From Campylobacterales bacterium (lineage in GTDB: Bacteria; Campylobacterota; Campylobacteria; Campylobacterales; JALSKU01), in contig JALUBK010000058.1 of the NCBI GenBank assembly GCA_027044945.1, positions 1 through 54,871 on the forward strand: a stretch of 54,871 nt of DNA, written 5' to 3'. Under the pieces are notes generated by a model. It was not told the DNA's origin, ran no database searches, and was given only the letters and a program-made list of their open reading frames with translations. Positions 2,551 through 33,218 of this stretch are shown piece after piece (positions within the stretch are counted from its first letter, which is position 1; each line of letters opens with the position of its first letter). A program made the translations under genes and the position numbers.

Positions 2551-3708
2551 TTATTGTGTTTTCCAAGTTATTAACAAATCAACAATCCATTTTTTAATCA
2601 AAAATAACACTGCTATTATTGTTATCATTAACATAGCAAAAGAAACAATCAAAGTTTTAATAAAATCTTTTTTAACAATTTTTTCTTCTTGAGTTTTCAT
2701 TTTTTTAATATTTAATTCAATATCAGTCAGATATACTCCTGTTCCTATAACCCAACCCCAAGGTTTAAACAATCTAACATCAGAAATTTTATTGCCATAT
2801 TTTCCAGTGGCAGGATTGAAAAAAGAATATTTTATAATAGCATCATCTTTTGAAGATTTTTTTAAAGCATTTACTCCTAATGCTACAAAAGGAACTTTAG
2901 GATTGTTTTTAAAATATTTACCAGTTAATTCTTTTTTTATTGGATGCATAATCATTTTATAATTCATATTGTTTATCCAAAAATATCCATTTTTGCCATA
3001 TCTAATTTTAGAAATAGCATTCAAGGCTTCTTTTTTCATTTTCTCAGTTACATCATCAATATATGCCCCCGTTCCTATAACCCAATTATACGGTTTAAAC
3101 ACTCTGACAATAGAAAATTTATAAACATATTTTTTTGATTTTGGTGAATAAAAATTATATGCTATATAAGCTATATTTTTACCATTTTTTTTAAGCTTAT
3201 TTACTCCTAATGCTACAAAAGGAACTTTAGGATTGTTTTTAAAATATTTACCAGTTAATTCTTTTTTTATTGGATGCATAATCATTTTATAATTCATATT
3301 GTTTATCCAAAAATATCCATTTTTGCCATATCTTGCAGCAGCAACTGTTTTAATAATCAAATTTTTCAATTCTTTTTTTGACATTTTATCTTTATTTAAA
3401 TTATAAATTTCTTCAATAATATTAAATAAGAGATCAGATTGCTGTGTAATATAATTTTTTACTTCATATTTTAATTTATTTTTATTGGTTCTTTCATAAT
3501 ATGGTTTTATAATATTCATTACTATCGTTGTATAATTATGCAATTTTTCTTTTTTCAAATTCAATACATTTTTTTTATAAATATTTATATTTTTATCGGC
3601 TAATTCTTTTAAAGAAATTGTATTTACAATAATTAAAGCTATTGATAAACCAATAATTGACATTATTATCACAAACAATAATCTTTGTTTAATTGATAGA
3701 TGTTTCAT
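2551..3708 (-). CDS. Membrane-anchored double Cache sensor protein without output domain
   Basis: The 385-residue protein has a membrane segment at about residues 9-29, a large extracytoplasmic region of two Cache-type units, a second membrane segment near residues 351-371, and then only about 14 cytoplasmic residues. Each unit carries RYGKNGYFWI, HPIKKELTGKYFKNNPKVPF, and later a VIGTGxY motif, as in Cache_2 sensor domains of chemoreceptors and kinases. HAMP, methyl-accepting and kinase domains are absent, and only 30 bases separate its stop from the convergent gene, so no missing output region lies downstream. Residues 126-170 and 236-280 are identical and encoded by a perfect 135-bp direct repeat. 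AGGA six bases upstream supports the ATG. It may be a natural stand-alone binding protein or a truncated receptor. Confidence 0.75.
   Translation of the reverse strand: MKHLSIKQRLLFVIIMSIIGLSIALIIVNTISLKELADKNINIYKKNVLNLKKEKLHNYTTIVMNIIKPYYERTNKNKLKYEVKNYITQQSDLLFNIIEEIYNLNKDKMSKKELKNLIIKTVAAARYGKNGYFWINNMNYKMIMHPIKKELTGKYFKNNPKVPFVALGVNKLKKNGKNIAYIAYNFYSPKSKKYVYKFSIVRVFKPYNWVIGTGAYIDDVTEKMKKEALNAISKIRYGKNGYFWINNMNYKMIMHPIKKELTGKYFKNNPKVPFVALGVNALKKSSKDDAIIKYSFFNPATGKYGNKISDVRLFKPWGWVIGTGVYLTDIELNIKKMKTQEEKIVKKDFIKTLIVSFAMLMITIIAVLFLIKKWIVDLLITWKTQ
2869..3003. repeat. 135-bp perfect direct repeat, copy A
   Basis: Identical to 3199-3333 at every base, offset 330 bp, and in frame inside the Cache gene. 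It encodes residues 236-280 (RYGKNGYFWI to ALGVN). Confidence 0.95.
3199..3333. repeat. 135-bp perfect direct repeat, copy B
   Basis: Second copy of the repeat at 2869-3003, encoding residues 126-170 of the Cache protein. Identity extends to synonymous positions, while the flanking parts of the two Cache units have diverged. Confidence 0.95.
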
Positions 3709-3842
3709 ACTTTTTCCTGATTTTTAGATAAATAATTATAGTATTATTATACTGCCTATGTCAAATCTAAGAAGGATGGTTTTTACTAATAACAATCTAA
3801 AAATTCTTTAAATAACTTAACGAACATAAAGACAAATATATG

Positions 3843-33156: not shown

Positions 33157-33218
33157 TTTTTTTTATTAGATTATATCATAAAATTAAAATTTTCTATGAT
33201 ATAATCTAATAAAAAAAA
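33157..33218. promoter_or_regulatory. Perfect 24-bp inverted repeat carrying mirror-image lpxB and surE promoters
   Basis: Arms 33157-33180 and 33195-33218 are perfect reverse complements around a 14-base AT loop. Each arm contains TATGATATAATCTAAT, so a perfect extended -10 (TGATATAAT) points outward on both strands: 33197-33205 for surE and 33170-33178 for lpxB. Predicted leaders are about 15 and 33 bases. Confidence 0.75.

Follow-up and report, generated by a model that had tools for sequence, protein, structure and literature searches.

Probable gene conversion between the two Cache units of a double-Cache gene lacking its output domains in a member of the Campylobacterales

Introduction

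The dCache_2 sensor domain derives from a duplication of sCache_2 (PMC4822843); chemoreceptors with this domain (PF08269) carry two sCache_2-like units between two membrane helices. Among the sCache_2 receptors, those of the PscD type are sensors of the C2/C3 carboxylates acetate, propionate or pyruvate. PscD uses Tyr90, His103, Tyr143 and Lys156 to hold the carboxylate, which lies between Trp92 and Trp145 (PMC5062169). Recombination is known to act on Cache regions: those of Treponema mcp2-1 (TP0488) are mosaics that arose by gene conversion (PMC3447947). In the limited open literature we found no report that the two units of a dCache_2 protein continue to exchange sequence, and nothing direct on conversion between Cache or PAS units.

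Here we describe a gene from a Campylobacterales bacterium whose two Cache units share a block of identical sequence. It lies in a contig of 54,871 bp (JALUBK010000058.1 of assembly GCA_027044945.1), the whole of which was analysed and is referred to below as the window.

Results

A double-Cache protein without its output half

The double Cache architecture proposed in the initial annotation of this gene was confirmed by Pfam, which matched dCache_2 to the encoded protein with 227.5 bits against a curated cut-off of 26.5 (E 2.5e-67) and sCache_2 in two separate stretches. The predicted structural model (mean pLDDT 83.3, pTM 0.65, based on a shallow alignment of only 3 sequences) has two sets of strands and helices, with a PAS-like core in each unit. 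On inspection, hydrophobic helices are visible at the N- and C-termini in both the sequence and the model and may flank an extracytoplasmic sensor part as two membrane helices. The gene is read from the reverse strand (Table 1) and its N-terminal unit (unit 1) is therefore the copy at the higher coordinates, which corrects the initial annotation. A ribosome-binding-like AGGA motif was seen on inspection to abut the ATG.

Table 1. Coordinates of the features discussed in the text (window positions unless another locus is named)
Feature	Position	Strand	Residues, basis or remark
Double-Cache (dCache_2) membrane protein, 385 aa; open frame, output domain missing	2551..3708	(-)	ORF, Pfam
Cache unit 1	3019..3333	(-)	Residues 126-230; unit alignment, strands and helices of the model
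Cache unit 2	2689..3003	(-)	Residues 236-340; unit alignment, model
Identical block, unit 1 copy	3199..3333	(-)	Residues 126-170; strands 1-2, loop and helices (model)
Identical block, unit 2 copy	2869..3003	(-)	Residues 236-280; exact-repeat search
Second membrane helix	2593..2652	(-)	About residues 353-372; alignment with L058/L059/L007
Sigma-70-like promoter, TTGACA-18-TATAAT	3735..3764	(-)	12/12, consensus match only; 26 bases upstream of the ATG
96-bp element, two copies	L002:2422-2517; G000:C64:48087-48182		

Overlooked in the initial annotation was the absence of the output domains, as neither HAMP nor MCPsignal (PF00015) was found by Pfam in the 385-aa ORF. The closest relatives of the gene product are methyl-accepting chemotaxis proteins (MCPs) of 705–748 aa, and Pfam detects the MCPsignal domain in the relatives from G030 and G008, including L058 and L007. 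The ORF stops 13 codons past the second membrane helix, where the relatives run on into the cytoplasmic signalling part; a convergent CRP-like gene ends 30 bp beyond the stop. Judging by these alignments, the gene is probably a recently truncated chemoreceptor. Loss of chemotaxis does not account for the truncation: the machinery is intact, with nine MCP domains in the genome and CheW-domain proteins at 26–30 kb of the window. An insertion element was likewise rejected as the cause, the TATCAATAGG repeat end being found at contig C9 and missing from the window. Truncation is not proof of lost function. Since the frame is open and preceded by a perfect promoter-like match, expression is possible, and the product would still be a membrane-anchored ligand binder, with no known signalling route.

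A block of identical sequence shared by the two units

A search of the whole window identified the 135-bp block, repeated at a lag of 330 bp, as its longest exact direct repeat and found no other of at least 24 bp; Tandem Repeats Finder did not report a 330-bp array. The identity sits within a broader match of 184 bp (89%). The block is in register with the reading frame, opening with codon 126 in unit 1 and codon 236 in unit 2, and covers exactly 45 codons, which in the model comprise strands 1–2, the ensuing loop and the helices, strands 3–5 being outside. Because the gene is AT-rich (22% G+C) and some codon agreement is expected, we compared it with 3,000 redraws in which the amino acids were held and the codons resampled from the gene's own usage. 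The longest identical run among the redraws was 107 nt, compared with the 135 nt observed, and the probability of agreement at all 45 codons when the amino acids are the same is about 10^-8.3. Outside the block, the codons agree at 21 of the 27 positions where both units share the amino acid (Met and Trp excluded), and over 60 codons the two units are 59% identical. Both parts of the initial description, two 135-bp segments 330 bp apart that are identical even at synonymous positions, and divergence of the remainder of the units, are borne out by these results.

Age of the two units and direction of exchange

Orthologs were gathered from 399 genomes of the order and each was divided into unit 1 and unit 2. 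Outside the block, identities to the same-position units of two G030 genes are 77% and 81% for unit 1 of the window gene and 73% and 68% for its unit 2. Within the block, the two units of the window gene match each other at 100%, and no other unit exceeds 83% identity to them. The tree of the non-block part separated the unit-1 rows of all seven genes from their unit-2 rows (support 98/97), and pairing of the window gene's own two units was rejected (p-AU 3.8e-6). The units also retain unit-specific ends, FKPYNWVIGTGAY in unit 1 and FKPWGWVIGTGVY in unit 2. As the flanks are old and position-specific, the block would be a partial tract copied between two old units. The alignments thus support an origin of the identity by intragenic gene conversion between long-diverged units. 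The direction is a tie: of the 26 sites informative against L058, the block agrees with unit 1 at 13 and with unit 2 at the other 13, and the block tree is poorly supported, without any starred branch. A third copy, on contig C9 of the same genome, was rejected as a donor, being merely 80–81% identical to the block.

Taken together, these observations make it highly probable that a two-unit chemoreceptor was inherited, underwent a recent non-reciprocal exchange between its units and has also suffered a probable truncation of its output part. The ancestral gene would have been a double-Cache chemoreceptor, its two units already long diverged. The exchange, by gene conversion or template switching, would have overwritten the first 45 codons of one core and left the unit-specific second halves untouched. 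The two matching stretches, spaced 330 bp apart, may recombine with ease; the usual outcome would be an exchange of the carboxylate pocket's front half, and an occasional one the in-frame loss of an entire unit.

Exchange tracts in other genes

Identical tracts shared by a gene's own units exceeded all 3,000 codon redraws in 3 of 75 genes, namely the window gene, L040 of G276 (93 nt) and L029 of G036 (65 nt), which belong to three different families of the order. Shorter tracts of 29–36 nt in L091, L065 and L007 (p 0.005–0.008 by codon redraws) were not counted because 75 tests were made. L031 is an unconverted gene with units of two different sequence types. A gene's own units were closer to each other than to same-position units elsewhere in 4 genes for the block, in 2 for the middle and in none for the end part. 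Across trees built from 150 units, the unit label changed 21 times for the block, 16 times for the middle and twice for the end part; as short segments give weak trees, whose weak signal can inflate such counts, and the clean separation of the end part may reflect functional constraint, these figures are suggestive, not decisive. The redraws show that apparent exchange tracts of this type recur in other genera.

Number of units

A decayed second copy with frameshifts is present on contig C9 of the same genome in the form of a one-unit Cache MCP pseudogene (L002:1370-2422). Compared with L007, its single unit has 85% identity to unit 2 and 65% to unit 1, and it is preceded by the N-terminal flank typical of unit 1 in two-unit genes. 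One other genus contains, in two sister species, a two-unit MCP (G146, 734 aa) and a one-unit MCP (G113, 599 aa), which are 72% identical across the final 490 residues. One-unit forms were placed among the unit-2 rows with moderate support (81/85; p-AU 0.042 against unit 1). In each, a unit-1 flank is joined to a unit-2 core. This joint is the outcome that would be expected of a crossover close to where the block starts, at the conserved RYGKSGYFW, and the comparison supports in-frame loss of a unit between species and between paralogs. The suggestion in the initial annotation that one unit could be gained or lost in frame therefore has a counterpart at the comparative level, in the C9 pseudogene and in the G113 and G146 orthologs. 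The end of contig C9, directly after the pseudogene, carries one of two identical genomic copies of a 96-bp element with inverted ends TATCAATAGGTAG...CTACCTATTGATA (Table 1).

The ligand pocket

The nearest solved relatives are the sCache_2 receptors 5G4Y (E 5.9e-19) and 4K08 (E 1.1e-14). Alignment to PscD-type structures placed the four residues that hydrogen-bond the carboxylate in PscD at Tyr242, His255, Tyr294 and Lys307 of unit 2; their equivalents in unit 1, assigned by register with unit 2, are Tyr132, His145, Tyr184 and Lys197. All four positions are thus kept in both units. The Trp92 position is conserved and the Trp145 position is occupied by Phe in both units. The block contains the positions of Tyr90, Trp92 and His103, with those of Tyr143 and Lys156 lying outside it. 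The earlier proposal of gene conversion in a ligand-facing segment is supported by this half-pocket of Tyr, Trp and His within the block and with its old, position-specific flanks. Because the four carboxylate-binding positions are present in both units, small monocarboxylates are the likely ligands, and NCBIfam matches below threshold, to the MctS and CtpM sensors, suggest the same compounds.

Other output-less dCache_2 proteins, of 385–389 aa, are encoded in two other genomes (L063:15-2531, L064:1520-3909). In G164 such a protein adjoins an L-lactate permease gene (Pfam), and in G296 one is found near what reads like the end of an L-lactate permease gene. It is possible that the L063 and L064 products are lactate-sensing or transport-linked solo Cache proteins.

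Neighbourhood and origin

The closest homologs of the gene, at 64% and 61% identity, are found in another family of the order (G030). A same-genus homolog is 50% identical, and seven other members of the genus have no homolog at E <= 1e-40. As the G030 homologs are closer than the one from the same genus, horizontal transfer of the gene is possible. The convergent gene at 2071-2520 encodes a short CRP-like cyclic-nucleotide-binding protein of 149 aa, lies beside a potassium-channel-like gene and has no good match elsewhere in the genus. Near ArsB homologs in other species, none of the other window genes was found within 1.5 kb. On these comparisons there is no syntenic ortholog. A single exact inverted repeat of 24 bp or more occurs in the window, at 33157-33218.

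Discussion

Several other histories could leave two identical blocks in one gene. The initial annotation had considered a recent duplication, and creation of the second Cache unit by recent tandem duplication of a whole unit would fit the in-frame 330-bp period and the origin of the dCache_2 family itself from an sCache_2 duplication (PMC4822843). However, orthologs in other families share both units, each with the halves specific to its position, and the pairing that such a duplication predicts is rejected by the non-block tree; this origin is extremely unlikely, and the p-AU value disposes of the earlier claim. Strong selection without any exchange might hold the block constant, as pocket residues are located there, but 45 of 45 codons agree, synonymous positions included, and the orthologs differ from the window gene by at least 17% within the block. 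Barring a constraint at the RNA level, the identity of the synonymous positions refutes selection as the sole cause, which we find hardly credible. The assembler deserves a closer look. An overlap of exactly 127 bp was found at eight pairs of contig ends, one of which is formed by the window's own end and contig C60; it follows that the graph was built at k = 127. The 135-bp repeat exceeds this value and is a branch point in such a graph, so the number of passes through the loop is left unfixed, and one, two or more passes would yield almost identical k-mers. That the two copies are identical nevertheless appears safe, as unique flanking k-mers should enter each copy from both sides and the identity would need real reads, and the tracts of 93 nt and 65 nt in L040 and L029 fall below 127 and are clear of this concern. 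We therefore consider a repeat created or mis-joined by the assembler very unlikely, and retain gene conversion between two old units.

Two further readings concern what the gene does now. The truncated protein could be a working output-less sensor or a ligand buffer, perhaps acting via another receptor, which would be compatible with the conversion history. The 385-codon frame is open behind a perfect promoter-like site, both units keep all four carboxylate-binding positions (PMC5062169), output-less dCache_2 proteins of about 390 aa occur near lactate permease genes in two other genomes, and Tlp7 of Campylobacter functions as separate sensor and cytoplasmic proteins (PMC3461409). On the other hand, an adjacent signalling gene is absent, a second MCP gene of the same genome has also decayed, and the closest relatives are all full MCPs. 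Because every close relative is a full chemoreceptor, we rate truncation with loss of signalling as likelier and treat a working solo sensor as a tentative possibility. It has also been proposed that members of the population differ in how many 330-bp units they carry, with recombination of the identical blocks acting as a switch that alters the sensor. In favour of this are the 135 bp of identity repeated after 110 codons, the predicted joint in one-unit relatives and an assembly at k = 127 that cannot count units. Against it, no array is reported by Tandem Repeats Finder, two units are the conserved layout in the 75 genes sampled (collected by matches covering most of a two-unit query), and in a gene without output such switching would have no obvious phenotype. 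We regard variation within the population as unlikely. Equally improbable, in our estimation, is the broader proposition that the pockets of the order's double-Cache receptors repeatedly swap front halves and that whole units are lost and gained, so that recombination within the gene would set ligand specificity and unit number, in populations and not just between species. If exchange between units is general, unit-by-unit trees of tandem sensors would mislead, one step could make the two pockets of a receptor alike, or mix them, and double-to-single Cache transitions would have a simple mechanism.

Comparison with known systems

The window gene has the layout of dCache_2 chemoreceptors, two sCache_2-like units between two putative membrane helices, and differs from them in the converted block between its units; the full-length relatives in G030 and G008 terminate with an MCP signalling domain, whereas the window gene has neither HAMP nor MCP. 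With the PscD-type sCache_2 receptors (5G4Y, 4K08) it shares the Tyr, His, Tyr, Lys and Trp92 positions, although these have a single unit and the window gene has two, with Phe at the Trp145 position. As in the split Tlp7 of Campylobacter jejuni (PMC3461409), the sensor is made apart from a cytoplasmic part; unlike in Tlp7, the cytoplasmic part is not adjacent and HAMP is missing. In TP0488, as in the window gene, recombination alters a Cache ligand domain, but the exchange there is between strains and here it would be between the two units of one gene. None of the parts is of a new kind; what is new is the repeated exchange of sequence between two units within a single sensor.
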